A stretch of DNA of 64,000 nucleotides from the NCBI RefSeq assembly GCF_029962485.1, contig NZ_CP073638.1, positions 3,100,001 to 3,164,000 of the forward strand, given 5' to 3'. Below are positions 21,501 to 36,655 of the stretch, piece by piece (the first letter of the stretch is position 1; every line of letters starts with the position of its first letter). Source of the DNA: Burkholderia cepacia. GTDB lineage: Bacteria > Pseudomonadota > Gammaproteobacteria > Burkholderiales > Burkholderiaceae. The notes beneath the pieces are model-generated. The model was given only the letters and a program-made list of their open reading frames with translations, was not told the origin of the DNA and did no database searches. A program made the position numbers and the translations under genes.

Positions 21501-24500
21501 CGACCTGAGCGGCGCGACGAGCGCGCAGACGATCGGCGCGCTGTCGGGTGTCGCCGGGACGAACGTCAACATGGGTGGCAACGGGCTGACGCTGGGCGGC
21601 ACCGCCAGCGGCACCTTCGGCGGCGTGATCGGCGGGGCGGGCAGCCTGACGCTGGCCGGTACCGGCACGCAGACACTGACGGGCGCGAACGTCTATACGG
21701 GCGGCACGAATCTGAACAGCGGCGGCGTCGTGCTCGGCAATGGCGGGGCGCTCGGTTCCGGCGCGCTGAACGTCGGCGGCGCGGCGACGCTCGACACGAC
21801 CGCGAGCCTGTCGGTCAACAACGCGGTCAATCTCGGCGCGGGCGCGACGCTGACGCTCGGCGGCAGCAACGCGCTCACGCTGAACGGCGGCATTGCTGGC
21901 ACGGGCGGCCTCGTGAAGGACGGCGCGGCGACCACGACGTTGACGGCCGCGAACACCTACACGGGCGGCACGACGATCAACGCCGGCACGCTGGCGCTCG
22001 GTGCCGGCGGCAGCCTCGCGGCGACGGGCGCGGTGAACGTGGCCGGCGCGGGCGCGACATTCGACCTGAGCGGTGCGACGGGTGCGCAGACGATCGGCGC
22101 ACTGAGCGGCGTTGCCGGCGCGGCCGTGAACCTCGGTGCGAACGGCCTGACGCTGAGCGGGACGGCCAGCGGCAATTTCGGCGGCACGATCGGCGGCACC
22201 GGCGGCCTGACAGTGGCCGGCACGGGCACGCAGACGCTGTCCGGCACGAACACGTACACGGGCGGCACGACGATCAACGGCGGCAGCACGCTGGCGCTCG
22301 GCACGGGCGGCAGTCTCGCGGCGACCGGGACGGTGAACCTCGCCGCTGCGGGCGCGACGTTCAACCTGGGCGGCGCATCGGGCGCGCAGACGATCGGCGC
22401 GCTGAGCGGTGCGGCCGGCACGAACGTGAACCTCGGCGCGAACGCGCTGACATTGAGCGGCAACGGCAACCATACGTTCGGCGGGACGATCGACGGTACC
22501 GCTGGCGTGACGTTCGCGGGTACCGGCACGCAAACGCTGACGGGCACGAACACCTACACGGGCGGTACGACGATCGGCGCCGGCGGCACGCTGGCGCTCG
22601 GTGCGGGCGGTAGCCTGGCCTCGACAGGGGCGGTGAATCTCGCTGGCGCCGGCGCGACGTTCAACCTGAGCGGCGCATCGGGCACGCAGACGATCGGCGC
22701 GTTGAACGGCGCGGCCAGTACGAACGTGGATCTTGGCGCGAACGGGCTGACGCTGAGCGGGACCGCCAGCGGCACGTTCGGCGGCGCGATCGGCGGCACG
22801 GGCAGCGTGACGTACGCGGGTACCGGCACGCAGACGCTGACGGGTGCGAACACGTACACGGGCGGCACGACGATCAACGGCGGCAGCACGCTTGCGCTTG
22901 TCGCGGGCGGCAGCCTGGCTTCGGGTAGCGCAGTGAATCTTGCAGGCACGGGTGCGACGTTCGACGTGAGCGGCGCATCGGGCGCGCAGACGCTCGGCAC
23001 GCTGAGCGGCATCGGCGGCACGAACGTGAACCTCGGCGCGAACGCGCTGACGCTGAACGGCAGCACCAACGGTACGTTCGCCGGTGCGATTGGCGGCACG
23101 GGCGGCGTGACGTTCGCGGGCACGGGTACGCAAACACTGACGGGTGCGAACACCTACACGGGTGGCACGACCATCAACGGCGGCAGCACGCTGGCGCTGG
23201 GTGCGGGTGGCAGCCTGGCTACCGGCGGTTCCGTGAACCTTGCCGGAGCAGGCGCAACGTTCAACCTGAGCGGTGCGTCGGGCGCGCAGACGATCGGCGC
23301 GTTGAACGGCGCGGCTGGCACGAACGTGGATCTTGGCGCGAACGGACTGACGCTGAGCGGAACCGCCAGCGGCACGTTCGGCGGTGCGATCGGCGGCACG
23401 GGCAGCGTGACGTTCGCGGGCACCGGGACGCAAACGCTGACCGGCGCGAACACCTATACCGGTGGCACGACGATCAACGGCGGCAGTACGCTCGCGCTGG
23501 GCGCAGGCGGCAGCCTGGCTTCCGGCAGTGCCGTGAACCTTGCCGGCACAGGCGCGACGTTCAACCTGAGCGGTGCATCGGGCGCACAGACGCTCGGCAC
23601 GCTGAGTGGCGCCACCGGCACGAACGTGAACCTCGGCGCGAATGCGCTGACGTTGAACGGCAGCACCAACGGCACGTTTGGCGGCGTGATCGCCGGCACC
23701 AGTGGCGTGACGTTCGCGGGCAGCGGCACGCAGACGCTGACCGGCGCGAACACGTACACGGGCGGCACGACGATCAACGGCGGCAGCACACTCGCGCTGG
23801 GCGCGGGCGGCAGCCTCGCGCCCAGCGCGGTGAACCTCGCCGGCACGGGCGCGACGTTCAACCTCAGCGGCGCGACGGGCGCGCAGACGCTTGGCACGCT
23901 GACCGGCGCGACCGGCACGAACGTAAACCTCGGCGCGAATGCGCTGACGTTGAACGGCAGCGGCAATAACACGTTCGGCGGCGCGATCGGCGGCACGGGT
24001 GGTGTGACGTTCGCAGGTGCCGGCACGCAAACGCTGACGGGCGCGAATACCTACACGGGTGGCACGACGATCAACGGCGGCAGCACACTCGCGCTGGGCG
24101 CCGGCGGCAGCCTTGCGTCGGGCAGCGCGGTGAATCTCGCCGGCACGGGCGCGACGCTCAACCTGGGCGGCGCGACGGGCGCGCAGACGCTCGGCACGCT
24201 GACCGGCGCGACCGGCACGAACGTAAACCTCGGCGCGAACGCGCTGACGTTGAACGGCAGCGGCGGCACATTTGGCGGTGCGATTGGCGGCACGGGCGGC
24301 GTGACGTTCGCGGGTGCCGGCACGCAAACGCTGACGGGCGCGAACACCTTCACGGGTGGCACGACCATCAACGGCGGCAGCACGCTGGCGTTGGGTGCGG
24401 GCGGCAGCCTCGCATCGGGCAGCGCGATGAATCTCGCCGGCACGGGCGCTACGTTCAACCTGAGCGGTGCATCGGGCGCGCAGACGCTCGGCTCGCTGTC

Positions 24501-27117
24501 CGGCGGCGCCGGTACGAACGTGACCCTCGGCGCGAACGCACTGACGCTGAATGGCAGCGGCAATGGCACGTTCGGCGGTGCGATCGGCGGCACGGGCGGT
24601 GTGACGTTCGCGGGCACCGGTACGCAGACGTTGACGGGCGCTAACACCTACACGGGTGGCACGACGATCGGCACCGGCAGCACGCTCGCGCTGGGTGCGG
24701 GCGGCAGCCTCGCGTCGGGCAGCGCGGTGAATCTCGCCGGCACGGGCGCGACGTTCAACGTCGGGGGCGCGACGGGCGCACAGACGATTGGCGCGCTGTC
24801 CGGCGGCATCGGCACCAGCGTGAATCTGGGCACGAATGCGCTGACGCTGAACGGCAGCGGCAACGCAGCGTTCGGCGGGACGATCGGCGGTGCGGGCGGC
24901 GTGACGGTTGCCGGTAGCGGCACGCAAACGCTGACGGGCGCGAACACCTACACCGGCGGCACGACCATCAACGGCGGCAGCACGCTGGAGCTCGGCGCGG
25001 GCGGCGGCCTCGCGTCGACGGGCGCGGTGAATCTCGCGGGCACGGGTGCGACGTTCGATGTCAGTGGTGCGTCGGGCGCGCAGACGATCGGCACGTTGAA
25101 CGGCGCGACCGGCGCGACCGTCAATCTCGGCGCGAATGCGCTGACGTTGAACGGCAGCGGCAACGGCACGTTCGGCGGCGCGATCGGCGGCGCGGGCGGT
25201 GTGACGATCGCCGGCACGGGTGTTCAGACGCTGACGGGCGCGAATACCTACACGGGCGGCACCACGATCGCGGTCGGTGGCGCGCTGCAACTCGGCAACG
25301 GCGGCGCGTCGGGCAGCATCGCCGGCAATGTCGTCGACAACGGCGCGCTGATCGTCAATCAATCCGGCAACGTGACGATTGCAAGCGTGCTGTCGGGCGC
25401 GGGCTCGCTGACGCAGGCCGGCAGCGGGCAACTGACGTTGACGGGCGCCAGCACCTTGAGCGGCCCGACCACGGTCAACGCGGGCACGCTCGCGGTCAAC
25501 GGGTCGCTCGGCCAGTCGACCGTGACCGTGCAGAACGGTGCGACGGTCACGGGCACCGGCACGATCGGCGGCCTCGTGGTGCAGGGCGGTGCGACGGCGG
25601 CCGCGTCGCAGCCGGGCGCGGCGCTGAACGTGGGCGGCAATGTCACGTTCCAGCCGGGTTCGACGTTCCAGGTCGCGGCCTCGCCGCAGCAAAGCGGCAG
25701 CCTCGCGGCGGGCGGTACGGCGACGCTGAACGGCGGCACCGTGCAGGTGATCGCGAACCAGAGCGGCTACCAGCCGAGCACGACCTACACGATCGTGACG
25801 GCGGCATCGGGCGTGCAGGGCGCGTTCAGCCAGGTGAATGCGAACTACGCGTTCCTGATGCCGACGCTCAGCTACGACCCGAATCACGTGTACCTGCGAC
25901 TCGTCGAAAACGGCACGTCGCTGCCGGACGTCGCGACGACGCCGAACCAGCGGTCGGTCGCGACCGCGCTCGGCGGGCTCGGCGCCGGCAACCCGCTGTA
26001 CGACGCGGTGCTGACGACCGACGCGCCCACCGCACGCCGCGCGTACGGGATGCTCGACGGCGAACTGCAGGCCAGCATGAAGAGCATGCTGCTGCTCGAT
26101 AGCCGCTATGTGCGCGATGCGGTGACCGATCGCGTCCGCCAGGGCCTCGCGCCCGGATCGGGCCCGCTCGCCGCGCTGTCGTCGGGCGGCGCCGCGCTGT
26201 GCGGCGACAACACGGCCGGCGCGGTCGACCCGACGCTGCCGCCGGAACGCCGGATCGGTTCGCGCGAGGGGTGCTACGGCGGCACGCCTTATCAACCGGT
26301 CGTCTGGGGGCAGGCGTTCGGCGGCCGCAGCCGGCTTACCGGCGACGGCAACGCGTCGACGATCAACCGCAGCATGACGGGCTTCATCGCCGGCGCCGAC
26401 ATGGCGCTCAACGACAAGTGGCGCGCGGGTCTGGCCGCGGGCGTTACGCATAGCTCGCTCGACAATGACCAGAGCTCGTCGGCGGCGGTGAACAGCTACT
26501 ACCTGTCGCTGTACGGCGGCGCGCAGTACGGTGCGCTCGGCGTGCGCGGTGGCGCGTCGTACACGTGGTACCGGATCAACAGCGATCGCAATCCGGGCTT
26601 CGCGGGATTCTCGGATCACGATTCGGCCGGCTACGACGCGAATTCGGCGCAGGTGTTCGGCGAAGTCGGCTACGCGCTGCCGGTCGGGCCCGTGGCGATC
26701 GAACCGTTCGCGGGCCTCGCGTATGTGAACCTGCATACCGACGGCTATACGGAAACGGGTGGCGCGGCCGCGCTGCGTGCCGGCGGCGAGACGACTCACG
26801 TCGGCTTCTCGACCCTCGGTTTGCGCGCGGCGTCGCAGCTCGGCTCGATTGCGAGCGGCACGTTCACCGCGCGCGGGACGGTCGGCTGGCGGCATGCGTT
26901 CGGCAACGTGCGGCCGTCGTCGGCGTTCACGTTCGCGAACGGCGGCACGTCGTTCCAGGTGTCGGGTGTGCCGATTGCTCGCGACAGCGCGGTGCTCGAA
27001 GCCGGTATCGACGCGAACATCACGAAGCGCCTGACGCTCGGCCTCACGTACAGCGGCCAGTACGGCAGCGGCGTGCGCGACAACGCAATCCTCGGCAACA
27101 TCCTGTGGAAGTTCTGA
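18514..27117 (+). CDS. Giant autotransporter adhesin-like protein with passenger repeats
   Basis: This 2867-residue protein starts at MNLARSKKAGEPFPR with a good ribosome site (GAGGGAA) and an extended signal peptide ending VPANA (about residue 36). The passenger is a Gly/Thr/Asn/Ala-rich beta-helix built from PATR-type repeats of the form TLTGANTYTGGTTINGG. Residues about 2598-2867 are a typical autotransporter beta-barrel (QAFGGRSRLTGDGNAST, GFIAGADMALNDKW) ending in NILWKF with the terminal aromatic residue. It is a type Va secreted or surface-displayed protein, probably an adhesin. It is monocistronic after a 714-base AT-rich leader. Confidence 0.93.
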   Translation: MNLARSKKAGEPFPRLLLPTGVFLALSGAGIVPANATCSTAGTTVTCSGIANPLAPSYSNSANNINATVNPGASVGVLLGVGGTAMSLTGNGVTLTNNGTIDPSALGSGLGVLSSGAVVGNASASANTTVVNNGTMNGSTGVAISGVTGMALSVQNGTGGTSNITNTGTIGSNPLVGATLVGADSPVVAAYGGAAVNMSNSGTINGRVAFGSSGTPGQGNTFTNSGTINGGVSMGANSNNTFNAVTGSSVNSAGGTGGSFNITVGPNTLNVAATGIVDGGAGGNNTLNLQQGTSANGTIAVNNYVNFNHLGVNSGNWTINGASTAQDATLNGGVAIIGNNASLGTGNVTANGGALQAGVAGLNVGNTVTLGGGGLTVQGATGLTLSGTVTGGGALTKNDGGTLTLTGANSYTGGTNLNAGGIVVGNNASLGSGALNVNGSASLDTSTNTTLGNTVNLTNNSTLTVGGSNNLGLAGAINGNGGLVKNGVATLTLTGTNTYTGDTTINSGTLALGAGGSLASTGTVSLTGAGATFDLSNATGAQAIGALAGSAGTSVNLGGNSLTLNGSVNATYAGSIGGTGGVTLAGTGTQTLTGANTYSGGTNLNGGTLVVGSNTALGTGAMNVNGSASLDATTNASLANNVNIATGTTLTLGGTTNLGLSGAVSGGGGLVKNGAATVTLSGANNYSGGTTLNAGGLVLGNNAALGTGALTVGGAATLDTSTNLSVNNAVNLATGSTLTLGGSNALTLNGGITGAGGLVKDGAATTTLTAANTYTGGTTINAGTLAISGAGSLAATGAVNLAGAGAALDLSGAAGAQSIGALSGVAGTNVALGNNGLTLGGTASGAFSGAIGGTGSLTLAGTGTQTLNGASTYSGGTNLNGGSSVVLGNNAALGTGALNVAGAAALDTNASLSVANAVNLGNGSTLTLGGSNALTLGGGIAGAGGLVKNGAATTTLTGTNTYTGGTTINAGTLAVGAGGSLAATGAVNLANAGAALDLSGATSAQTIGALSGVAGTNVNMGGNGLTLGGTASGTFGGVIGGAGSLTLAGTGTQTLTGANVYTGGTNLNSGGVVLGNGGALGSGALNVGGAATLDTTASLSVNNAVNLGAGATLTLGGSNALTLNGGIAGTGGLVKDGAATTTLTAANTYTGGTTINAGTLALGAGGSLAATGAVNVAGAGATFDLSGATGAQTIGALSGVAGAAVNLGANGLTLSGTASGNFGGTIGGTGGLTVAGTGTQTLSGTNTYTGGTTINGGSTLALGTGGSLAATGTVNLAAAGATFNLGGASGAQTIGALSGAAGTNVNLGANALTLSGNGNHTFGGTIDGTAGVTFAGTGTQTLTGTNTYTGGTTIGAGGTLALGAGGSLASTGAVNLAGAGATFNLSGASGTQTIGALNGAASTNVDLGANGLTLSGTASGTFGGAIGGTGSVTYAGTGTQTLTGANTYTGGTTINGGSTLALVAGGSLASGSAVNLAGTGATFDVSGASGAQTLGTLSGIGGTNVNLGANALTLNGSTNGTFAGAIGGTGGVTFAGTGTQTLTGANTYTGGTTINGGSTLALGAGGSLATGGSVNLAGAGATFNLSGASGAQTIGALNGAAGTNVDLGANGLTLSGTASGTFGGAIGGTGSVTFAGTGTQTLTGANTYTGGTTINGGSTLALGAGGSLASGSAVNLAGTGATFNLSGASGAQTLGTLSGATGTNVNLGANALTLNGSTNGTFGGVIAGTSGVTFAGSGTQTLTGANTYTGGTTINGGSTLALGAGGSLAPSAVNLAGTGATFNLSGATGAQTLGTLTGATGTNVNLGANALTLNGSGNNTFGGAIGGTGGVTFAGAGTQTLTGANTYTGGTTINGGSTLALGAGGSLASGSAVNLAGTGATLNLGGATGAQTLGTLTGATGTNVNLGANALTLNGSGGTFGGAIGGTGGVTFAGAGTQTLTGANTFTGGTTINGGSTLALGAGGSLASGSAMNLAGTGATFNLSGASGAQTLGSLSGGAGTNVTLGANALTLNGSGNGTFGGAIGGTGGVTFAGTGTQTLTGANTYTGGTTIGTGSTLALGAGGSLASGSAVNLAGTGATFNVGGATGAQTIGALSGGIGTSVNLGTNALTLNGSGNAAFGGTIGGAGGVTVAGSGTQTLTGANTYTGGTTINGGSTLELGAGGGLASTGAVNLAGTGATFDVSGASGAQTIGTLNGATGATVNLGANALTLNGSGNGTFGGAIGGAGGVTIAGTGVQTLTGANTYTGGTTIAVGGALQLGNGGASGSIAGNVVDNGALIVNQSGNVTIASVLSGAGSLTQAGSGQLTLTGASTLSGPTTVNAGTLAVNGSLGQSTVTVQNGATVTGTGTIGGLVVQGGATAAASQPGAALNVGGNVTFQPGSTFQVAASPQQSGSLAAGGTATLNGGTVQVIANQSGYQPSTTYTIVTAASGVQGAFSQVNANYAFLMPTLSYDPNHVYLRLVENGTSLPDVATTPNQRSVATALGGLGAGNPLYDAVLTTDAPTARRAYGMLDGELQASMKSMLLLDSRYVRDAVTDRVRQGLAPGSGPLAALSSGGAALCGDNTAGAVDPTLPPERRIGSREGCYGGTPYQPVVWGQAFGGRSRLTGDGNASTINRSMTGFIAGADMALNDKWRAGLAAGVTHSSLDNDQSSSAAVNSYYLSLYGGAQYGALGVRGGASYTWYRINSDRNPGFAGFSDHDSAGYDANSAQVFGEVGYALPVGPVAIEPFAGLAYVNLHTDGYTETGGAAALRAGGETTHVGFSTLGLRAASQLGSIASGTFTARGTVGWRHAFGNVRPSSAFTFANGGTSFQVSGVPIARDSAVLEAGIDANITKRLTLGLTYSGQYGSGVRDNAILGNILWKF
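19750..22260 (+). repeat. Mixed array of two passenger repeat types inside the autotransporter gene
   Basis: Two related units alternate here. Type B is about 264-267 bp (88-89 residues) and starts GGTNLN or GGTTLN, then has LGNNAALGTGALNV. Type A is about 297 bp (99 residues) and starts GGTTIN or DTTIN, then has LALGAGGSLAATGAVN. The order read from the protein is B, A, B, B, A, B, A, B, A, so a B+A pair of about 561 bp recurs. This indicates growth by duplication of pairs. Confidence 0.85.
22261..25254 (+). repeat. Ten tandem 294-300-bp repeats in the autotransporter gene
   Basis: Ten consecutive type A units begin near 22261, 22561, 22861, 23161, 23461, 23761, 24058, 24355, 24655 and 24955. 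Each encodes about 98-100 residues with GGTTINGGSTLALGAGG, VNLAGTGATFNLSGASGAQ, NVNLGANALTLNG and GGVTFAGTGTQTLTGANT. The copies differ mainly at a few positions and by single-codon indels, so the array is prone to recombination and to assembly errors in short reads. Confidence 0.9.
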
Positions 27118-27273: not shown

Positions 27274-29496
27274 ATGCCGAATCACGCCGAAGCCGCCACG
27301 ACGCAGGCGCCGCAAGTCGCGCCTGCTGCCCCGACCGCCGCGTCGGGTCCCGCCTTCATCGCGCCCGAAGCCGATCCACAGGCCCTCGCGCGCAACAACC
27401 AGTACGTACTGAAATCCGGCGACGCGTTCGTGGTCAGCGACGCGCTCGGCGACATCGGCGGGCATGACGACGGCCTGTTCGTCGACGACATGCGCGTGCT
27501 GTCGAAATGGCGCCTGACGTTCGGCGGCCGCGCGCCGTCGCTGCTGTCGGGCGCGACGAGCGCCGACAACGCGTCGTTCACCGCGCACCTGACCAACCGC
27601 CCGTTGCCGCCGCTCGGCGGCCACGAGACACCCGAGGGCGTGATCCATATCGAGCGGATGCGCGTGCTCGCGGGCGACGTGCTTTATGAAGCGCTGACGC
27701 TGACGAACTACGGTGCGAGCGAAGCCGAGGTGCCGCTGTCGCTGTCGTTCGCGGCCGATTTCAAGGACATGTTCGAGGTGCGCGGCACGCAGCGCCCGAA
27801 GCGCGGCACGGTCGTTGCTCCGCGCGTCGATGCAGGCGCGGTGCGGCTGCGTTACGACGGCCTCGACAGCGTCGAGCGCAACGTGACCGTGCATTTCTCG
27901 CCGGCGCCCGACGCGCTGTCGGTCGATCGCGCCGACTACACGCTGACGATCGCCGCGCAGGCCTGTGTGTCGATCTACCTGACCGTCGATGCGACGCTCG
28001 GCCCGGCGCATGTCGAAGGGCCCGGATGCGGTCGCGTCGCGCTGCGCACTGCGCTTGTCGGCGTGCATCGCGAGATGCGCGCGCGGCGCGAATCGATGGC
28101 GCGCGTGAACACCGGAAATCCGCTGTTCGACGCGTGGCTCGACCGCTCGCTCGCGGATCTCGGGCTCCTCACGACGCAGCTCGACACGGGGCCGTACCCA
28201 TATGCGGGCATTCCGTGGTTCTCGACGCCGTTCGGCCGCGACGCGGTGATCACGTCGCTGCAGATGCTGTGGCTGCAGCCGTCGCTCGCGCGCGGCGTGC
28301 TGCGGTTTCTGGCCGAGCACCAGGCGCGCGAAACGTCCGCGTTCCGCGACGCGGAGCCCGGCAAGATCATGCACGAGTTCCGCCGCAGCGAGATGGCCGC
28401 GACGGGCGAAGTACCGTTCGCGCTGTACTACGGCGGTGTCGACACGACGCCGCTGTTCATCGTGCTGGCCGGCGCCTATGTCGAACGCACCGGCGACGAT
28501 GCGTTGATCGACGAGCTGTGGCCCGCGCTCGAACGCGCCGCGCAATGGGTGATCGACAAGTGCGACCGCAATCCGTACGGACTCCTCGATTACCAGCGCA
28601 CGTCGGAGCGCGGCCTCGCGAACCAGGGCTGGAAGGACAGCCACGATTCGGTGTTCCATGCGGACGGTCGCTTCCCCGACGGGCCGATCGCGCTCGTCGA
28701 AGTACAGGCCTATGCGTGCGCGGCGCTCGATGCGATGTCGGCGTGCTCGCACCGGCGCGGCCACGCAGCCGATGCGACGCGCTATGCCCTGCGCGCGAAG
28801 ACGCTGCGCGAACAGGTCGACGCGCTGTTCTGGATGCCGGAAGGCGATTTCTACGGGATCGCGCTCGACGGTCATGGCGATTTGTGTCGTGTGTTCGCGT
28901 CGAACGCGGGGCACCTGCTCGCGTTCGGGCTGCCCGACGCCGAGCGCGGCGCGGCGGTGGCCGGCGTGCTCGGCTCGGCGCTGTTCCAGACGGGGTGGGG
29001 CATCCGCACGCTCGCGGCCGGCCAGCCGCGCTTCAACCCGATGGCCTATCACAATGGCTCGGTATGGCCGCACGACAATGCGCTCATCGCACGCGGGCTC
29101 GCACGCTACGGCGACAAGACGGCCGCGGTGAACCTGCTGCGCGCGCTGTTCGAGGCGGCGGTGAGTTTCGAGATGCGCTTGCCGGAGCTGTTCTGCGGGT
29201 TCCCGCGCCGGCGCGGCGAACCGCCGACCGCGTATCCGGTGGCCTGCCTGCCGCAGGCATGGGCGGCCGGTGCGCCGTTCATGATGCTGCAGGCGTGCCT
29301 CGGCGTGAGCATCGACGCGTCGCGCCACGAGGTGCGCGTCGAGCGCCCGGCGCTGCCGGAAGGCGTCGACTGGCTGCGGATCGACGCGCTGCGCGTCGGC
29401 GACGAAACCGTGTCGCTGACGTTCCGCCGGGTCGACGGCCAGGTCGTCGCGGCGGCGGAGCAGCCGGGCCGCGTGAAGGTGGTCGCGGTGCTGTAG
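27274..29496 (+). CDS. Amylo-alpha-1,6-glucosidase (glycogen debranching type)
   Basis: The 740-residue protein has an N-terminal debranching-enzyme domain (GDE_N_bis type: VSDALGDIGGHDDGLFVDDMR, about 55-75) and a C-terminal (alpha/alpha)6-barrel of the amylo-alpha-1,6-glucosidase type. The barrel includes AGIPWFSTPFGRDAVITSLQ, GLANQGWKDSHDSVFHADG and WPHDNALIARGLARYGDK, where acidic residues serve catalysis. Such proteins trim alpha-1,6 branches of glycogen-like glucans or act in stress-related sugar storage. The ATG at 27274 has the ribosome site AGGAG seven bases ahead. No signal peptide is seen, so it is cytoplasmic. Confidence 0.88.
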   Translation: MPNHAEAATTQAPQVAPAAPTAASGPAFIAPEADPQALARNNQYVLKSGDAFVVSDALGDIGGHDDGLFVDDMRVLSKWRLTFGGRAPSLLSGATSADNASFTAHLTNRPLPPLGGHETPEGVIHIERMRVLAGDVLYEALTLTNYGASEAEVPLSLSFAADFKDMFEVRGTQRPKRGTVVAPRVDAGAVRLRYDGLDSVERNVTVHFSPAPDALSVDRADYTLTIAAQACVSIYLTVDATLGPAHVEGPGCGRVALRTALVGVHREMRARRESMARVNTGNPLFDAWLDRSLADLGLLTTQLDTGPYPYAGIPWFSTPFGRDAVITSLQMLWLQPSLARGVLRFLAEHQARETSAFRDAEPGKIMHEFRRSEMAATGEVPFALYYGGVDTTPLFIVLAGAYVERTGDDALIDELWPALERAAQWVIDKCDRNPYGLLDYQRTSERGLANQGWKDSHDSVFHADGRFPDGPIALVEVQAYACAALDAMSACSHRRGHAADATRYALRAKTLREQVDALFWMPEGDFYGIALDGHGDLCRVFASNAGHLLAFGLPDAERGAAVAGVLGSALFQTGWGIRTLAAGQPRFNPMAYHNGSVWPHDNALIARGLARYGDKTAAVNLLRALFEAAVSFEMRLPELFCGFPRRRGEPPTAYPVACLPQAWAAGAPFMMLQACLGVSIDASRHEVRVERPALPEGVDWLRIDALRVGDETVSLTFRRVDGQVVAAAEQPGRVKVVAVL

Positions 29497-29592
29497 CGCC
29501 GTGCTGCGCGAACGTTGCGCGATGTCGCGCCACGTTCGCGCGCAGCGGCATAGAATCGTGACATGACCCTTGAACGATGGCGGAGGTAGACG

Positions 29593-29844
29593 ATGACGAC
29601 CGACAACCGGCCCGACGACGGCGAGCACAAGCTCGAGAATCTCGAAGCGGCGGTCGACCACCTGCACAAGTCGATCGAATCGCAGAGCATCGCGGTCGGC
29701 GCGGCGAAGGGCATTTTGTTCAGCCTGATCGAAACGCTCGGCGCACTGATCGGCGATCCCGACCTGCCCGAGCATGCGCGCTCGGGTTACGAAGCGCTGC
29801 GCGACAAGGCCAGCGAACTGCGCGGCGGGCTCGACCGGCATTGA
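29593..29844 (+). CDS. Small conserved-looking protein of unknown function
   Basis: The 83-residue product (MTTDNRPDDGEHKLENLEAA at the start) is acidic at the N-terminus and predicted to be mostly helical, with LENLEAAVDHLHKSIE giving a short amphipathic helix. It has a good ribosome site (GGAGG) and native codon bias, which support it as real. It follows the debranching enzyme by 96 bases on the same strand, and a strong hairpin follows it. I cannot assign a function. Confidence 0.7.
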   Translation: MTTDNRPDDGEHKLENLEAAVDHLHKSIESQSIAVGAAKGILFSLIETLGALIGDPDLPEHARSGYEALRDKASELRGGLDRH

Positions 29845-29854
29845 GGCACGGCTT

Positions 29855-29888
29855 GCGCCGGCGCCAGCCGCACGGGCTGCGCCGGCGC
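29855..29888 (+). terminator. Long GC-rich hairpin after the 83-residue protein gene
   Basis: GCGCCGGCG pairs with CGCCGGCGC and, past one bulged C, CAGCC pairs with GGCTG around a five-base loop, giving 14 base pairs. It begins 11 bases after the stop codon. There is no T-run, so it may work as an mRNA 3' end structure rather than as a classic intrinsic terminator. Confidence 0.5.
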
Positions 29889-29924
29889 TGCCCGATTCTG
29901 CAGATGAAGCACAAAACCCCGTGC

Positions 29925-29990
29925 GCTCAATGAGTTAGGTGGCCGGTGCGCAGGATATCCACAAGCTTGCCAACACAATCTGTGGAGAAC
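29925..29990 (+). repeat. Dispersed repeat element, copy 1
   Basis: Copy 1 reads GCTCAATGAGTTAGG, a short variable stretch, and then GCGCAGGATATCCACAAG, CTTGCCAACACAATC and TGTGGAGAAC. The arms TCCACA and TGTGGA are inverted relative to each other. It lies in the convergent gap downstream of the 83-residue protein gene. Confidence 0.85.
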
Positions 29991-30137
29991 TGCCCGGCCT
30001 TCGATCACGCGCGCGGCGCGTGCCTGGAGGTTGTCCGGAGTGCGGTGCGAATGCCTTTCCGGTGCCACACCATTGACCGGTCAAGGTCCGGATATTGAAT
30101 CCCCTTGTGTATCAATATGTTACGCGCCGGATCTGAT

Positions 30138-30175
30138 GGATATCCACAGGCTTGCCAACATATTCTGTGGACAAC
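30138..30175 (+). repeat. Dispersed repeat element, copy 2 (core only)
   Basis: This copy has the core GGATATCCACAGG, CTTGCCAACATATTC and TGTGGACAAC, but the usual GATCAA...TTAGG leader is degraded (CGCCGGATCTGAT lies in its place). The TCCACA/TGTGGA arms are intact. Confidence 0.8.
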
Positions 30176-30285
30176 TCGCAATCGATTGCGTCGCATTGGT
30201 TGAGTATCGGGCCCGAATGCGACAGGCGTGCGAAGCCCGTGCACAAAGGCTGCCCGATGTGTGTGTCGGAAAGTAAATTCGTGCA

Positions 30286-30352
30286 CGATCAATGGCTTAG
30301 GTGCCGGGTGCCCAGGATATCCACATCCTTGCCAACACTTTCTGTGGACAAG
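30286..30352 (+). repeat. Dispersed repeat element, copy 3
   Basis: The leader CGATCAATGGCTTAGG is followed after a variable stretch by CAGGATATCCACATC, CTTGCCAACACTTTC and TGTGGACAAG. It ends only seven bases before the penR stop codon. Confidence 0.85.
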
Positions 30353-30358
30353 CGCGCG

Positions 30359-31249
30359 TTACGCGCCCGGCATCGTGCCGGCCGCTTCGGCCACGATCCA
30401 GTCGCGAAACAGCGTCATCGCGGGTGTCAGCGGTTTCGATTTCAGCGACGTGATCCAGTAACCGCCCGCACACACGTCGATGTCGAGCGGCCGCGCGAGC
30501 AGGCCGAGCTGCAGTTCGCGCGCGAACATGCAGGCCGGCGCGAGCGCGACCCCCGCACCCTGCATCGCGGCCTCGACCATCAGCCGGGACGAATCGAACA
30601 CGGGCCCGTTGGCCGCCCATGGCTCGAGCTGCGCGGCGTCGAACCAGCCGTGCCATTCGTCGGTGCGGTACGAGCGCAGCAGCGTTTCGTTCGCGAGATC
30701 GGCCGGCTGCGCGAGGCGCCGCGCGATCTCCGGCGCGCACAGCGCGGTGAGCGGCGCGTCGAGCAAGCGCTCGTTGCGCGTCGCCGGCCAGTTGCCTTCT
30801 CCGAAGCGGATCGCGAAGTCGAGGCCCTCGGCGGCGAGATCGACGACGTTGTTGTTGGTGCGCAGCCGCAGCTCGACGAACGGGTGCGTATCGCCGAACT
30901 GCTTCAGCCGCGGCATTAGCCAGCCTAGGGCAAAGGTGCCGACGACGCCGAGCGTCAGCACCTCGCGGAAGCGCCCGCCGTCGAACTGCTTGAGCACCGT
31001 CTCGATGCGGCTGAACGCGTCGCTCAGCACGGGCAGCAGCGCACGGCCCTCGTCGGTGAGCCCGAGGCCACGCGGCAGCCGTGTAAACAGCGTACAGCCG
31101 AGCCGTTCCTCGAGCGAGCGCACCTGCTGGCTGACCGCGGCCTGGGTCACGCTCAGCTCGAGGCCGGCGCGTGTGAAGTTCAGGTGGCGCGCCGACGATT
31201 CGAACGCGCGCAACGCATTGAGCGGAAGATGCGGGCGGAGCTTAGTCAT
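30359..31249 (-). CDS. penR: LysR-family regulator of the beta-lactamase (PenR/AmpR type)
   Basis: The 296-residue protein has an N-terminal LysR helix-turn-helix (LPLNALRAFESSARHLNFTRA then LELSVTQAAVSQQVRSLEERL) and an effector domain with WLMPRLKQFGDTHPFVELRL. This is the AmpR subgroup pattern, which binds muropeptide or UDP-MurNAc-pentapeptide signals. It is divergent from the class A beta-lactamase gene, which is the arrangement known for penR-penA in Burkholderia. It should activate penA when beta-lactams perturb cell-wall recycling. The 128-base gap between them holds the shared control region. Confidence 0.9.
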   Translation of the reverse strand: MTKLRPHLPLNALRAFESSARHLNFTRAGLELSVTQAAVSQQVRSLEERLGCTLFTRLPRGLGLTDEGRALLPVLSDAFSRIETVLKQFDGGRFREVLTLGVVGTFALGWLMPRLKQFGDTHPFVELRLRTNNNVVDLAAEGLDFAIRFGEGNWPATRNERLLDAPLTALCAPEIARRLAQPADLANETLLRSYRTDEWHGWFDAAQLEPWAANGPVFDSSRLMVEAAMQGAGVALAPACMFARELQLGLLARPLDIDVCAGGYWITSLKSKPLTPAMTLFRDWIVAEAAGTMPGA

Positions 31250-31284
31250 AAGATTTTCTTTTGTCAGCGCTCAATTATCGTTGC

Positions 31285-31313
31285 TTGTCAGTCAACCGTA
31301 AAGTCCCGATAGT
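31285..31313 (+). promoter_or_regulatory. Candidate penA promoter
   Basis: TTGTCA at 31285-31290 and GATAGT at 31308-31313 are separated by exactly 17 bases and lie 65 bases upstream of the penA ATG. A second TTGTCA occurs 24 bases upstream at 31261-31266. The sequence between them is AT-rich and is the expected LysR-type binding zone. Promoter strength and the exact operator are not shown by sequence alone. Confidence 0.5.
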
Positions 31314-31377
31314 GCTGTCTCGGCGGCCGGCCGTTTTCAACATCGATTCGCCTCCATTCCACCACGAGACAACCGAC

Positions 31378-32313
31378 ATGACCTACTCATCGAAACGTCG
31401 AACCCTGTTGCTGGCCGCCGCGACGGCGCCGCTCGTTCTTACCGTCACCGCGTGCGCGTCGCGAGCCGCCGTGCCGGGTGAGGCCAATTCGGCAGCGGCG
31501 GCTGCCGCGGACGCCGTGGCGCCGGCGGCAGCCGCGGCGGCGATTGCCGATCTCGAGCGCGGCGCGGGCGGCCGTCTCGGCGTGTGCGCGATCGATACCG
31601 CGAGCGGCCGGATCATCGAGCATCGCTCGGGCGAGCGCTTTCCGTTCTGCAGTACGTTCAAGGCGATGCTGAGCGCGGCGGTGCTTGCGCAGAGCGTCGA
31701 TCGCCCGGGCCTGCTGCAACAGCGCGTGACCTACACGAAGGCCGACCTCGTCAACTATTCGCCGGTGTCGGAGAAGCATGTCGGCGCGGGCATGACGGTC
31801 GCCGCGCTGTGCGAGGCCGCGATCCAGTACAGCGACAACTCGGCCGCGAACCTGCTGATGAAGCTGATCGGCGGTCCGTCCGCCGTGACCGCGTTCGCGC
31901 GCTCGATCGGCGACGACACGTTCCGGCTCGATCGATGGGAGACCGAACTGAATACCGCGCTGCCGGGCGACCCGCGCGACACGACGACGCCTGCCGCGAT
32001 GGCCGCGAGCATGCGTGCGCTCACGCTCGGCGAGGCGCTCCCGGCCGCGCAGCGTGCGCAGCTCGTTACCTGGCTGCGCGGCAACAAGGTCGGCGACAAG
32101 CGGATCCGCGCGGGCGTGCCGGCCGGGTGGCAGGTGGGCGACAAGACAGGTACCGGCGACTACGGGACGACGAACGATGCCGGCGTGATCTGGCCGGCGT
32201 CGGGCGCACCGATCGTGCTGGTCGTGTACTACACGCAGGCGCAAGCCGATGCGCGTGCGAAGGACGATGTGATCGCGTCGGTCGCCCGCATCGTCGCGCA
32301 GACGCTCGGCTGA
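31378..32313 (+). CDS. penA: Class A beta-lactamase, PenA/PenB family
   Basis: The 311-residue precursor has all class A motifs: Ser92-Thr-Phe-Lys95 (Ambler S70xxK) preceded by Cys91, SDN at 152-154, Glu188 in RWETELN (Ambler E166), and KTG at 256-258. The N-terminus [15 protein letters not shown] has a twin-arginine pair and ends in VTAC with Cys26, so it is probably a Tat-exported lipoprotein, as reported for Burkholderia PenA. Then comes an Ala-rich linker. It hydrolyses penicillins and cephalosporins in the periplasm. Members are named PenA, PenB and so on by species, so the symbol is by family. All catalytic residues are intact. Confidence 0.94.
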
Positions 32314-32391
32314 GCCGGGCGGTGCGGCGTGCGCGGCGCGATCCGCCTGCACGCCGTGCCGCAGTCGTGATCCGCCTGACCAAACGTTGTG

Positions 32392-32457
32392 CGATCAACG
32401 ACTTAGGTCACGCATGCTCAGGATATCCACATGCTTGCCAACAAAAATTGTGGACAA
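32392..32457 (+). repeat. Dispersed repeat element, copy 4
   Basis: The leader CGATCAACGACTTAGG is followed by CAGGATATCCACATG, CTTGCCAACAAAAAT and TGTGGACAAG. It lies 78 bases after the penA stop. Confidence 0.85.
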
Positions 32458-32495
32458 GCCAGCGTGCTGCCGTGTTCGCCGTGGCGCGAGCGGTC

Positions 32496-32598
32496 GTGCC
32501 GCGTTTGAAGCGGCGCGGACAAAGTCTTTCGGATCAAGCGCTTGGCTGCGGTATGCGCAGGCTATCCACATGCTTGCCAACAAAATCTGTGGACAAGC
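32496..32598 (+). repeat. 103-bp direct duplication, left copy, containing repeat element 5
   Basis: This block starts GTGCCGCGTTTGAAGCGG, continues CGCGGACAAAGTCTTTCGG and then holds the dispersed element (GATCAAGCGCTTGG, CAGGCTATCCACATG, TGTGGACAAGC). It matches the block at 32668-32770 at an offset of 172 bases with only a few differences. Confidence 0.85.
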
Positions 32599-32667
32599 GG
32601 GCAGGCCGGCGCGGCGGGCGACTCGTCACGCCACGGAAGGGCACGCAACCGGCGATTTACCGGCCGT

Positions 32668-32770
32668 GTGCCGCATTCGAAGCGGCGCGGACAAAGTCTT
32701 TCGGATCAAGCGCTTGGTCGCGGTATGCGCAGGCTATCCACATGCTTGCCAACAAAATCTGTGGACAAGC
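32668..32770 (+). repeat. 103-bp direct duplication, right copy, containing repeat element 6
   Basis: This is the second copy of the block at 32496-32598. The differences I can see are GTT TGA versus ATT CGA near the start and GCTGCG versus GTCGCG in the variable stretch. It includes CAGGCTATCCACATG and ends TGTGGACAAGC, 22 bases before the small membrane-protein stop. Confidence 0.85.
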
Positions 32771-32792
32771 CCGCGGGCCGTCGCCGCGACGT

Positions 32793-32993
32793 TCAGCGCT
32801 GCCGATCGTCGACCGTGGGCCAGCGCGCAAACGCGAACACCCACAGCATGATGAAGTTCAGGACCGGGACGAACATCGTCAGGATCCACCAGCCCGAATG
32901 TCCGGTGCGCCGGACGATGCGAACGTACGGATAGACGACGATGGCGACGAGCACGAGCGAGACGAGCAACTGCCACGCGGTGAAGTGTTCCAT
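32793..32993 (-). CDS. Small two-helix membrane protein
   Basis: The 66-residue protein MEHFTAWQLLVSLVLVAIVV has two hydrophobic helices (about 5-24 and 33-55) around the loop RIVRRTGHSGWW, ending in AFARWPTVDD. This pattern occurs in many short bacterial membrane proteins annotated as hypothetical. A good ribosome site (AGGAAGACC) precedes the ATG. The function is unknown. Repeat elements flank it on both sides. Confidence 0.65.
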   Translation of the reverse strand: MEHFTAWQLLVSLVLVAIVVYPYVRIVRRTGHSGWWILTMFVPVLNFIMLWVFAFARWPTVDDRQR

Positions 32994-33225
32994 GGTCTTC
33001 CTCGGAGTGATGTGTCGTGGTGCGGCGCCGGCGCAGCGGCCGGCCCGCCAGGCCGGCGCGCGACGCCGACGATGCGCGGCCGCGTGCGGCTCGCATGATC
33101 TTGATGCGTGACGTGCACGGGCGTCAAGGCGCGGGCGGATGGTGTCGTAGCGTCGGGTCGTCCGCTTCCGCACACGCTTGCGCCGCGCGTTGCTGAAACG
33201 GTGGCAGGGCGCACGAATGGCAGAC

Positions 33226-33291
33226 CGATCAACGGGTTAGCGCACGCTTGCGCAGGATATCCACAAGCTTGCCAACACAATCTGTGGGTAA
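33226..33291 (+). repeat. Dispersed repeat element, copy 7
   Basis: The leader CGATCAACGGGTTAGC is followed by GCGCAGGATATCCACAAG, CTTGCCAACACAATC and TGTGGGTAAG. The right arm is altered by one base (TGTGGG instead of TGTGGA). Confidence 0.85.
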
Positions 33292-33429
33292 GTGGCGCGG
33301 CAGCCGGCCGACCCGCGTGGGGCGGTCGCGGCGTGCATCGCCGTGGCGTCGTGATGCGAACTGGGGCGAAGCGACATGCGTGACGGCCAGCGCCCGGGCC
33401 TCGTCTGCATCACGCGTGCCTAAGTCCAT

Positions 33430-33496
33430 CGGATCAAGGGTTTAGCGACGCGGTGCGCAGGATATCCACAAGCTTGCCAACATTTTCTGTGGAGAA
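33430..33496 (+). repeat. Dispersed repeat element, copy 8
   Basis: The leader CGGATCAAGGGTTTAGC is followed by GCGCAGGATATCCACAAG, CTTGCCAACATTTTC and TGTGGAGAAG. Both arms are intact. It ends 68 bases before the monooxygenase stop. Confidence 0.85.
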
Positions 33497-33564
33497 GTCC
33501 GCGTTCGCGATGGGTCGGTGCGGCACCGATGGATGCCACGCGCTGCCACGTCGCGCACGCGCAC

Positions 33565-33933
33565 TTACGCGGTGCAGATACCGGCGACGCCGACTTTCTG
33601 GAACAGGTGCGGGCTGGCGACCGCGGACGACGGATAGGCCGACAGCTTGGCGACGAACTCCGGATGCGTGAAGGCCGCGCGAAACGTTTCGGTCGATTCC
33701 CAGATCGCGTAGTTCAGGTAGGTCGGACTGTCGCCAAGCGCGCGATGAAGCTGGGTCGAGATGAAGCCCGGCTGCCGCTTCATGAATTCCGCGTCGTCCT
33801 TCCATACGGCGAGAAAGTCGGCTTCTTCCGCAGGTTCCAGTGTGAACACGTTGACGAGAACGACCGGCTCCGCGTCGATCGTTATCTGTTGTTGGATCGG
33901 AAAGGCCGGATCCATCGGCTTGAAGTGAGGCAT
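33565..33933 (-). CDS. Antibiotic biosynthesis monooxygenase (ABM) family protein
   Basis: The 122-residue protein shows the dimeric alpha-beta barrel pattern of ABM proteins: VVLVNVFTLEPAEEADFLAV, then FMKRQPGFISTQLHRAL, YLNYAIWESTETFRAAF and the C-terminal segment VASPHLFQKVGVAG. The ATG of MPHFKPMDPAF has the ribosome site AGGAG. ABM proteins are cofactor-free monooxygenases or haem- and quinone-related enzymes; the substrate here is unknown. It follows the MarR-type gene by 35 bases on the same strand and is probably its target. Confidence 0.85.
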   Translation of the reverse strand: MPHFKPMDPAFPIQQQITIDAEPVVLVNVFTLEPAEEADFLAVWKDDAEFMKRQPGFISTQLHRALGDSPTYLNYAIWESTETFRAAFTHPEFVAKLSAYPSSAVASPHLFQKVGVAGICTA

Positions 33934-33968
33934 GGGAACTCCTGGTGAGGTAGCGGGCTGGCGGGTGG

Positions 33969-34415
33969 TTACACGTGGCCGTCCTGGCCATGTGCGCTGG
34001 ACATCGCCGACAGCACGCGAATGGCGGCATCGAGGTCGGCCGAGCTGAATTCGCCCGCGATGTCGCGGACATGCTGTTGCCACTGCTCGACCACGGCCTG
34101 ATAGGCCGCTTCGCCGCGCGGCGTCAGCGCATAAAGGGGCGAGCGCTTGTGCGCCGGGTTGGGCAAGGACAGGACCAGCCCTTCTTCGGTCAGCACGTTG
34201 ATCTGTTTCAGCACCGCTTGCCGCGTGATACCCATCGCATCGGCAATCTGCGGGATGTTCGGCGCGTCCGGCGCCATCGAGATCGCGCCCAGCACCTGCC
34301 AGCGCGCACTGGTCAGGCCATGTGGCCCGGAAAAGGCGTTGCCCCATTCGATCAGCAACCCGTTCAACCGGAATACGGACAGCGCGACGGCGGTCAACTT
34401 CGCGGATTTCGTCAT
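33969..34415 (-). CDS. MarR-family transcriptional regulator
   Basis: The 148-residue protein has a winged helix-turn-helix with LTSARWQVLGAISMAP, IPQIADAMGITRQAVLKQI and the wing NPAHKRSPLYALTPRG, as in MarR proteins. The start is the ATG of MTKSAKLTAVALSVFRLNG; residues further upstream would be read from the palindromic control region. It probably represses its own operon with the ABM gene and responds to a phenolic or antibiotic-like ligand. Inverted GACAAC/GTTGTC sites lie just upstream, in the position expected for an autoregulatory operator. Confidence 0.87.
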   Translation of the reverse strand: MTKSAKLTAVALSVFRLNGLLIEWGNAFSGPHGLTSARWQVLGAISMAPDAPNIPQIADAMGITRQAVLKQINVLTEEGLVLSLPNPAHKRSPLYALTPRGEAAYQAVVEQWQQHVRDIAGEFSSADLDAAIRVLSAMSSAHGQDGHV

Positions 34416-34434
34416 GTCCCACTCGCATCGTAAA

Positions 34435-34472
34435 TTGACAACCACTTTACGTAATGGACAACTGGTTGTCAA
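34435..34472. promoter_or_regulatory. Candidate MarR operator region
   Basis: TTGACAAC at 34435-34442 and GTTGTCAA at 34465-34472 are perfect inverted arms, and an inner palindrome GACAACTGGTTGTC occupies 34457-34470. The sites lie 20-57 bases upstream of the marR-like ATG, over the likely promoter. Binding by the adjacent MarR protein is inferred from position. Confidence 0.5.
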
Positions 34473-34591
34473 GTTGATGGATGAACGTCGCCACACGACG
34501 ATGGATCGGTACACTTGGGGCGCGATCCGGCACCGAAAGCATCGGTTGCGACGGATTGCTGGCCAACAACAAGGAACCTGGAGAGAAATCA

Positions 34592-35098
34592 GTGAGTACG
34601 ATCAGGAAGATGATCGCCGTGCCGTTGCTGGCGGTGGTATGCGGCACGAGTGCCCATGCGTGTATCCCGGCCAACTATCGGACCGCGTATTTTGGCAAGG
34701 CCCAGCACATGAGCGACGAACTCCGTGACAAGGTGATCGACGACATCCGTGCCAATCACTACACGATCATCGAATCGAAAATCGGCTTGTTGTTCTTCCC
34801 GATCGTCAGGAAGGGGGAGGCGATCTATCTCCGCGACAAGCCGATCGCAACGGGAAAGGATTCGTTCTGGTACCTCGGGCAGGGCTATTACCAGTTGAAC
34901 GGTCAGCTCTATTACATGGGCGAACATGTCGGTGCCTTTCCGAGCGACGGGACCGTCGTCGTTCACGTCGAGGATCGCACGCGCCCGAAGCCGGACGACT
35001 ATCCGAAAGGGCGTCTGTATTGCCGCGTGGCGCAGCACGCCAGCATTCTCGAAACCTCGACCGGCCTGCGGGTCGAACAGATCGTTGACGACAATTGA
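34592..35098 (+). CDS. Exported protein of unknown function
   Basis: The 168-residue product begins at a GTG (ribosome site GGAG ten bases ahead) with the signal peptide IRKMIAVPLLAVVCGTSAHA and a mature start CIPANYRTAYFG. The central part has tyrosine-rich beta segments (FWYLGQGYYQLNGQLYYMG) reminiscent of DKNYY-type repeats. A second cysteine occurs in LYCRVAQHAS. I do not recognise a named family. Codon bias is weaker than in neighbours (for example ATT and TTG codons), which hints at acquisition. It is divergent from the marR-like gene. Confidence 0.65.
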   Translation: MSTIRKMIAVPLLAVVCGTSAHACIPANYRTAYFGKAQHMSDELRDKVIDDIRANHYTIIESKIGLLFFPIVRKGEAIYLRDKPIATGKDSFWYLGQGYYQLNGQLYYMGEHVGAFPSDGTVVVHVEDRTRPKPDDYPKGRLYCRVAQHASILETSTGLRVEQIVDDN

Positions 35099-35192
35099 GT
35101 CGCGCGAGGTGCGTGGCTGACCGGGCGCGGTGCATCACGCACCGGTTTGCGGCCACCTGGCGCATTTGCCGCGCAGCCCCGACAAACCCTTT

Positions 35193-35260
35193 CCGATCAA
35201 GGGCTTGGTGCCGTTAATGGAAGGTTGTCCACAAGCTTGCCAACATAATCTGTGGAAAAG
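35193..35260 (+). repeat. Dispersed repeat element, copy 9
   Basis: The leader CCGATCAAGGGCTTGG is followed by a diverged stretch and then AAGGTTGTCCACAAG, CTTGCCAACATAATC and TGTGGAAAAG. In the left arm TTGTCCACA replaces ATATCCACA. It fills the convergent gap between the exported-protein gene and qseC. Confidence 0.8.
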
Positions 35261-35278
35261 CCGGCGGTCACGCGTGCA

Positions 35279-36655
35279 TCAGGCCGGTGCGGGAAACCGC
35301 ACCGTGACGGTCAGCCCGCGTCCGCCTTGCGTGGTGCCGAGTGCAACCGTCGCGCGATGCTGTTCGGCGATCCGCTTGACGATCGACAGCCCGAGCCCGC
35401 TGCCCGACGACGTGACGGCTTGCGCCCCTTCGCCGCGATAGAAGCGTTCCCACACGTCCGTGCGTTCGGCTTCCGGAATCCCGGGGCCGTCGTCGGCGAC
35501 TTCGAGCACGGGCGTCGTGCCGTCGATGCGCGCGGACACGTCGACACGCGAGCCGTCGCCCGCATAGCGGATCGCATTGTCGACGAGGTTGTTCAGCAGC
35601 ACGCGCAGCGTGTCGGCGTTGCCTGCCGCCATCACGGGCGCGGCGACGATCGCACCGAGATCGATCCGGTGCGCGTCGGCGACGCGTGCGCGGTCCGACA
35701 CCACCGACCGGCACAGCGCGGCGAGATCGACGGGCGCCGACGCCGATGCGGCCGCTTGCGCATCGGGTTCGAGGCGCGCGAGCGTCAGCAACTGCTCGGC
35801 GAGATGGCCGAGGCGTGTCGTGCCCGCATGGATCTGCGCGAGGATATGTTCGCGTTCCTCCGCGGTCGCCGCGCGTCGCAGCAGCTGCGACTGGATCGAC
35901 AACCCCATGATCGGCGTGCGCAACTCGTGCGCGGCATCGGCGATGAAGTGCCGCTGCAGCGTGAACGAGCGGTCGAGCCGCGTGAGCAGGTCGTTGATCG
36001 CCTCCGCGAGCGGGCGGACCTCGTTCGGCATCGATGCGACGTCGACCGGTTCGAGGTTGTTCGCATTCCTGCGTTTCAGGCCTGATGCGATCGTGCGCAG
36101 CGGCCGCAGCCCCGCGCCGATGCCGAACCACAGTCCGATGGCGAGCAGCGGCAGCATCGAGAACACCGGCCACAGCAGGTGCACGGCGATGCCGGCGATC
36201 GCTTCCCAGCGCGCATGTCGAGCCTGCGCGAGCCGGATCGTCGTGCCGCCGCGTTCGGTCACATAGGTGCGCCACGGCTGGCCGCCGACGTCGACGCTCG
36301 CGATGCCCTTCTGCTCGGGCGGCGGCAGCTTCGATTCGCGGTCGGTCGAATACATCAGCGTGCCGTTGCGCCACACCTGCAGCAGCACTGCATCGGGGTC
36401 GCTCGCCTCGAAGCCGTGCTTGCCGTTCGCATGGTCGCTGAACGACAGCTCGCCGTTCGGGCCGACGACGATTTGCCTCGACATGCTGCGCATCTGGTCG
36501 TCGAGCAGGTCGTCGAGTTCGCGCAGCGCACCCCAGTAGGTGCCGGCGCTCGCGACCAGGCCGATCACGCACGCGGCCGGCAACAGCCACGTCAGCAGGC
36601 GCCGCCGCAGCGACGCGTTGCGCCAGCGCGCGATCGCGCGTTGCACGTGCGTCAT
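35279..36655 (-). CDS. qseC: Sensor histidine kinase, QseC/PmrB-like
   Basis: The 458-residue kinase has transmembrane helices at about 20-42 and 155-178 around a 110-residue periplasmic domain. A HAMP linker (GLRPLRTIASGLKRR) follows, then the H box DAAHELRTPIMGLS with His243, an N box NNLVDNAIRYA, and G boxes DDGPGIPE and GSGLGLSIV. Its ATG overlaps the regulator's stop (ATGA), so the pair is translationally coupled. Synteny with a ygiW-like gene supports QseC, which in E. coli senses signals such as catecholamines, although the ligand is not conserved with certainty. Confidence 0.88.
   Translation of the reverse strand: MTHVQRAIARWRNASLRRRLLTWLLPAACVIGLVASAGTYWGALRELDDLLDDQMRSMSRQIVVGPNGELSFSDHANGKHGFEASDPDAVLLQVWRNGTLMYSTDRESKLPPPEQKGIASVDVGGQPWRTYVTERGGTTIRLAQARHARWEAIAGIAVHLLWPVFSMLPLLAIGLWFGIGAGLRPLRTIASGLKRRNANNLEPVDVASMPNEVRPLAEAINDLLTRLDRSFTLQRHFIADAAHELRTPIMGLSIQSQLLRRAATAEEREHILAQIHAGTTRLGHLAEQLLTLARLEPDAQAAASASAPVDLAALCRSVVSDRARVADAHRIDLGAIVAAPVMAAGNADTLRVLLNNLVDNAIRYAGDGSRVDVSARIDGTTPVLEVADDGPGIPEAERTDVWERFYRGEGAQAVTSSGSGLGLSIVKRIAEQHRATVALGTTQGGRGLTVTVRFPAPA

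Follow-up and report, generated by a model that had tools for sequence, protein, structure and literature searches.

A stretch of 64,000 nucleotides from Burkholderia cepacia (contig NZ_CP073638.1, positions 3,100,001 to 3,164,000; hereafter the window) carries an array of nine short units, which is probably a DnaA control locus built from nine IHF-assisted units of the DnaA-reactivating sequence (DARS) type and resembling a multi-copy form of DARS2 from E. coli. The parts of this reading, which we take from motifs and their spacing, are not equally firm: binding of DnaA and IHF to the units is very likely, reactivation of DnaA seems somewhat more plausible than its mere titration, and a coupling of the replication of the two chromosomes is a tentative proposal. 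The array suggests a control point for replication timing in multi-chromosome bacteria, a subject worked out mainly in Vibrio cholerae. An earlier note on this DNA, made from its letters, had described a leader and a core in each copy; the element itself is real, and we now read the leader as an IHF-type site and the core as a three-box DnaA-type site in DARS geometry.

All nine copies lie on the + strand in one ungapped register between positions 29914 and 35259 of the window, as the same orientation reported before had implied. Each unit starts with a short A-run, followed after 8 bp by a 13-bp IHF-type site (its first base mostly G, then ATCAANNNNTTR), a 17-bp spacer, ATATCCACA, 3 bp, TTGCCAACA, 5 bp and TGTGGACAA; we call the last three elements DnaA box III, the weak box II and the inverted box I, respectively. 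Boxes I and III match TTATCCACA with at most one mismatch in all nine units, so that the 5.4 kb of the array hold 18 such DnaA boxes compared to none in the window's remaining 58.6 kb. As 200 runs of an order-2 Markov model of the array sequence yielded 0.33 boxes on average and never more than 4, a chance origin is excluded, in agreement with the former impression that the element is selected. With up to three mismatches allowed, the core pattern matches nothing except these nine copies in the whole genome of 7,704,383 bases (reversed-pattern control: 0), and all nine are on replicon C2 (3,267,341 bases); the earlier observation of no further copies in the rest of the window therefore holds. 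A looser core pattern added four single places in the genome outside the array, again with 0 for the reversed control. The composite of IHF-type site and DnaA core was found nine times in the window and not at all in 2 Mb simulated from it, with the spacer fixed at 17 in this search and the spacing itself tested by a separate scan from 0 to 39 bp. The genome encodes DnaA and an IHF-alpha protein scoring above the curated cut-off.

A first argument for the DARS type comes from the arrangement of the boxes. Papers are cited here for those passages of them that were available. Read on the opposite strand, the array core has the form I> N5 <II N3 <III in nine of nine units, and the same form is seen in E. 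coli K-12 both at DARS1 (L065: 1108, 1122, 1134) and at DARS2 (L066: 1636, 1650, 1662). The labels I to III at the K-12 places were assigned by us from orientation and spacing, and the II–III pairs so labelled agree with the double boxes tabulated in PMC11317965. According to PMC5742627 a DARS has box I opposed to boxes II and III, with equal spacing at DARS1 and DARS2, and in PMC8682772 the release of ADP is attributed to the head-to-head contact of DnaA molecules on boxes I and II. In the array, box I runs opposite to II and III in every unit, with gaps of 5 bp (I–II) and 3 bp (II–III) throughout. In the available text of PMC11317965, E. coli DnaA favours double boxes 2–3 bp apart in vivo, and a listed datA pair includes TTGTAAACA, which is similar in form to the box II of the array. 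Support for the 5-bp gap was also obtained from a search that was not derived from the array core: inverted pairs of TTWTCCACA and TGTGGAWAA with gaps of 0–25 bp occur at 17 places in 16 Burkholderia genomes, all of them with gap 5, and the reversed control gave 0. There is one such place per genome and one more in G002 (C1:3025), and in 15 of the 16 genomes it lies about 5–10 kb from the main ori2 iteron cluster; the place in G028 could not be assigned, as its iterons were not among the matches listed. The ori2-side place in the genome of the window is completed by a box III at N3.

The second component of the units is the IHF-type site. ATCAANNNNTTR is exact in eight of the nine units and has one mismatch in unit 1, and the A-run stands 8 bp upstream of the 13-bp IHF consensus as it does at one lambda attP match used as a yardstick. 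Units found by their DnaA core alone in other genera were expected to bear a predicted IHF site too, and this held for 37 of 47, which carry the consensus with at most one mismatch. The spacing of these 37 is 17 bp in 25 units and 18 bp in the other 12, which all belong to genus g11; no other value occurred in the range of 0–39 bp scanned. By genus the matches amount to 2/4 (g8), 4/5 (g10), 21/26 (g11), 1/2 (g13), 9/9 (g20) and 0/1 (g25). The 47 units come from 17 genomes of six other genera, chosen because the looser core search had matched them; they include orthologous ones and hence are not independent, and one unit near a contig end (L203) was left unscored. The assignment to DnaA is supported by the outer boxes of these units, of which in many cases one or both are perfect (TTATCCACA or TGTGGATAA). 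Genus g11 (L187-L192, L204-L209) shows two clusters of two to three units, about 86–90 kb apart in the two genomes with both on one contig, and one of these clusters has the 18-bp IHF spacer instead of 17.

A profile search over Burkholderia had been proposed in the earlier note, and the core was found with up to two mismatches in 64 of 65 genomes of the genus, in 2–10 copies and on a single strand within each genome; only G017 lacks it at this threshold, and there the same locus holds three composite units. A looser search of the family matched at least once in 218 of 398 genomes, and these fall into 10 of 25 genera. An exact scan, which would miss degenerate copies, over 84,980 species with one genome apiece returned 67 stretches, 55 from Burkholderia and 12 from Paraburkholderia, Caballeronia, Trinickia and Pararobbsia, and the 8-kb loci around these 12 often hold more, less exact units. 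With one genome per species and all of them related by descent, these counts do not stand for independent events. The element seems to be undescribed, as had been supposed: no description of it was found in open-licence papers, which were searched for DARS, datA and DnaA-box clusters of Burkholderia or betaproteobacteria as well as for intergenic repeats at penA.

As a model we propose that IHF would bind the ATCAANNNNTTR site and bend the DNA beside the core, where DnaA would occupy boxes II and III as a double box (same direction, 3-bp spacing) and box I head-to-head with box II across the 5-bp spacing. This head-to-head contact would loosen ADP from ADP-DnaA, as for E. coli DARS2, and the freed DnaA would reload ATP. 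Nine units would give the locus a high capacity, and its position about halfway along a chromosome-2 replichore would make its dose double at a fixed interval after the firing of ori2 and so tie the replication of chromosome 2 to the supply of ATP-DnaA for oriC1.

DARS2, located in the rppH–mutH gap of E. coli, is the closest known system. It is intergenic and has three boxes in the same order and spacing, it contains IHF sites that are described as required for its activity in the available part of the literature, and it lies at about 0.41 of the replichore from oriC, as computed from map positions in the excerpt of PMC4585315. DARS1 (bioD–uvrB gap) shares the identical core spacing and orientation. 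As judged from its motifs the array nevertheless differs from DARS2 in copy number, box strengths, IHF placement, replicon and lineage: DARS2 is a single copy on the only chromosome compared to nine in an array on the second chromosome, and its core, like Fis, is reported to show conservation specific to the E. coli-related gammaproteobacteria (PMC4245941, in part). DARS1 is also a single copy.

Several points weigh against our assignment. In DARS2 box II is strong (one mismatch) and box III weaker, and in DARS1 box II is perfect, whereas the array has a weak box II, with three mismatches to TTATCCACA, and a strong box III. The IHF-type site of the array is 17 bp away from the core, unlike at DARS2; DARS2 also needs Fis sites, for which the array was not searched; and the array is not found beside uvrB or mutH, a matter of position and not of mechanism. 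The first base of the 13-bp IHF consensus should be A or T and is mostly G (0.84 of 238 copies), and the 12-mer pattern ATCAANNNNTTR has three further matches elsewhere in the window. A strict IHF pattern finds the site of E. coli datA but none in the DARS2 gap, thus missing the published DARS2 sites, and none in the DARS1 gap, and for this reason our motif calls are not equivalent to binding data. Ten of the 47 units from other genera are without an IHF match at one mismatch or less, and 26 of the 47 come from one genus. Finally, the looser search gave an opposite-strand match in four genomes of the genus (G011, G017, G036 and G043), those of G011 and G017 lying on other contigs and those of G036 and G043 being unplaced.

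The main competing explanation is a datA-like locus, at which the array would titrate DnaA or, together with IHF, promote ATP hydrolysis and thereby restrain initiation. With 27 potential DnaA positions (18 good and 9 weak) and 9 IHF-type sites in 5.4 kb the array would be a large sink, and E. coli datA, too, is intergenic and combines DnaA boxes with one IHF site (PMC5742627, excerpt); it contains a ATATCCACA box variant with a TTG...ACA partner, and its double box resembles boxes II–III. However, datA is a single copy, and according to the same excerpt its essential boxes share one direction with an internal IHF loop that joins boxes 2 and 3, whereas each array unit has its box I turned against the other two at a constant 5 bp, with the IHF-type site outside of the core, as expected for a DARS. 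The shared direction of the essential datA boxes and the looping between two of them weaken this alternative, which we consider rather improbable.

The DARS-type reading is also in line with the place of the array on chromosome 2. In all 15 genomes measured the distance of the array from the ori2 iterons amounts to 0.41–0.69 of a replichore, with a mean of 0.52. Its units point away from ori2 in all 15, also in G008 and G021, whose arrays occupy the opposite side with respect to the strand of the iterons. Each of the 15 genomes has one contig of 2.3–3.9 Mb carrying array and iterons, which was treated as a closed circle with rounded coordinates; sixteen genomes, our own included, had been considered, and G028 was dropped because its iterons were not among the matches listed. 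An array that in 15 of 15 genomes sits on the replicon of the ori2 iterons might also suggest a replication or segregation site of chromosome 2 itself (RepA iterons, parS or crtS-like) and no DnaA site at all. We judge this very unlikely, as the c2 iteron given in the available text of the publication is unrelated in sequence, with its main cluster about 0.78 Mb away (sites of the parS or crtS type were not searched for), such units have perfect DnaA boxes in other genera, and a related unit with the same layout is present on the dnaA-carrying replicon. Chromosome-2 iterons were rejected, being different both in sequence and in place.

Among the 31 stretches compared, some of them short, a glycogen-debranching-enzyme-like gene is present in 30 and a two-component kinase in 24; the array begins beside the former gene and ends before the two-component system. 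The genes penR and penA, the monooxygenase and the MarR gene vary among these stretches. All nine copies are intergenic, as had been noted, with copies 1–3, 4–6 and 9 between convergent genes and copies 7–8 downstream of a gene with an ABM (antibiotic-biosynthesis-monooxygenase) domain. With seven of nine units in convergent gaps and IHF being a DNA-bending protein, the units might serve as a nucleoid-organising or local transcription element, for example as an IHF/DnaA anchor, an insulator or a regulator of penA and its neighbours. We regard such a role as unlikely: the units are retained while the intervening genes vary from stretch to stretch, convergent gaps are poor positions for promoters, and six stretches with 3–7 units in the same neighbourhood gave no penA hit (a seventh, L064, holds only the end of the array). 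The association with penA given in the earlier note is thus incidental, and penA-specific regulation was rejected since the units persist where a penA hit is absent. The neighbourhood queries for the genes at 29593 and 34592 were one base out of frame (29592 and 34593).

Pairing of the TCCACA...TGTGGA ends in a transcript, as part of an RNA-level element or an intrinsic terminator, was considered as well. Five of the nine copies were folded and gave z-scores from 0.07 to -0.72, none clearly beating shuffled sequence, and Rfam had no match at gathering score in window positions 29000–36000. A check for covariation had also been proposed, and inspection of the profile, with no pairs counted, shows two almost invariant arms instead of covariation. 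An RNA function is accordingly most improbable. The profile was built from 238 copies with at most four mismatches, taken from the window and from 30 loci in other Burkholderia genomes; one hit with five mismatches on the other strand in L063 overlaps a unit read backwards. Information in the profile is highest at the A-run, at TCAA and TT and over the boxes and falls within two bases past box I, with a minor peak 69–66 bases upstream of the core. In the nine copies TCAA, TT, GG, most of box III, CTTGCCAACA and most of box I are invariant. The description of conserved arms around a freely varying middle is correct in that the 17-bp spacer holds most of the variation, except that the spacer end GCGCAGG is fairly conserved. 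A dispersed repeat of the repetitive extragenic palindromic (REP), bacterial interspersed mosaic element (BIME) or miniature inverted-repeat transposable element (MITE) kind was rejected, and the array is no dispersed REP-like family, as the search of 7.7 Mb gave nine copies at a single locus.

Units related to those of the array are found elsewhere. A related form, TTATCAACA N3 CTGTCAACA N5 TG[TG]GGATAA, is present in 62 of 65 genomes of the genus with 1–3 matches each, and among the matches listed the one at G041:C136 is a chromosome-2-type unit. Our own genome has a related unit at C1:2185765-2185799 (L177) on the dnaA-carrying replicon, with an IHF-type site (one mismatch) at 17-bp spacing, and at the three loci examined seven units of the related form fit the composite with a 17-bp spacer and 0–2 IHF mismatches. 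It is possible, and we propose it with considerable reserve, that chromosome 2 is the site of the main DnaA-recharging station in Burkholderia and that the array acts as an inter-chromosome timer. ATP-DnaA might then suffice for the next round at oriC1 only once the fork on chromosome 2 has copied the array, and the smaller paralogous locus on chromosome 1 together with a DARS-geometry core about 6–7 kb from ori2 might complete a three-point circuit. A precedent for a non-origin site thought to link two chromosomes is crtS of V. cholerae (chrI-4 site), which its authors liken to DARS in the passages available; in contrast to the array, crtS is described there as binding RctB, lying on chromosome 1 and being dissimilar to the initiator sites in the origin. 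For timing control the array offers a concrete candidate, being conserved, of probable DnaA–IHF type and at a comparable relative position on chromosome 2. If our assignment is true, DARS-type control would extend outside the gammaproteobacteria and would occur in arrays, and the units, being short and well-bounded DNA, could be tested with purified proteins.

Three single places with DARS geometry were recorded in our own genome. The core at G000:C2:2361910-2361941 (L174:6911-6942) has near-perfect boxes and lies in a gap, with the ori2 iteron cluster about 6.6 kb away. The core at G000:C1:2686654-2686685 (L175:6655-6686), for which the fixed-distance IHF site was not found, stands just upstream of a gene that we take to be parE (a topoisomerase IV subunit). 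The third, at G000:C1:3226763-3226794 (L176:6764; two mismatches), is situated between a gene, presumably comM-like, and a convergent open frame.

The coordinates of the nine units are compiled in Table 1. The copy starts given previously agree in general, except for copy 2, where 30138 belongs to the core and the leader is at 30111.

Table 1. Positions in the window of the nine array units and of their putative IHF-type sites and DnaA boxes.
Unit	Span	Strand	IHF-type site	Box III	Box II	Inverted box I	Remark
1	29914..29989	+	CTCAATGAGTTA 29926-29937	29955-29963	29967-29975	29981-29989	short A-run; IHF-like, 1 mismatch
2	30099..30174	+	ATCAATATGTTA 30111-30122	30140-30148	30152-30160	30166-30174	
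3	30276..30351	+	30288-30299	30317-30325	30329-30337	30343-30351	
4	32382..32457	+	32394-32405	32423-32431	32435-32443	32449-32457	
5	32521..32596	+	32533-32544	32562-32570	32574-32582	32588-32596	
6	32693..32768	+	32705-32716	32734-32742	32746-32754	32760-32768	
7	33216..33291	+	33228-33239	33257-33265	33269-33277	33283-33291	
8	33421..33496	+	33433-33444	33462-33470	33474-33482	33488-33496	
9	35184..35259	+	35196-35207	TTGTCCACA 35225-35233	35237-35245	35251-35259	

Of the genes flanking the units, two (29593-29844 and 34592-35098) are predicted frames only, for which Pfam gave no match. On C2 of our own genome there is also a second small cluster of c2-type iterons (G000:C2:2492533-2496010), about 140 kb from the main one, and a paper on Burkholderia cenocepacia, in the part available, mentions a second iteron cluster for its strain too. 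Elsewhere in the window, an open frame of 2900 residues with many near-identical repeats extends over positions 18415-27117 and looks by eye as if it might encode an autotransporter.

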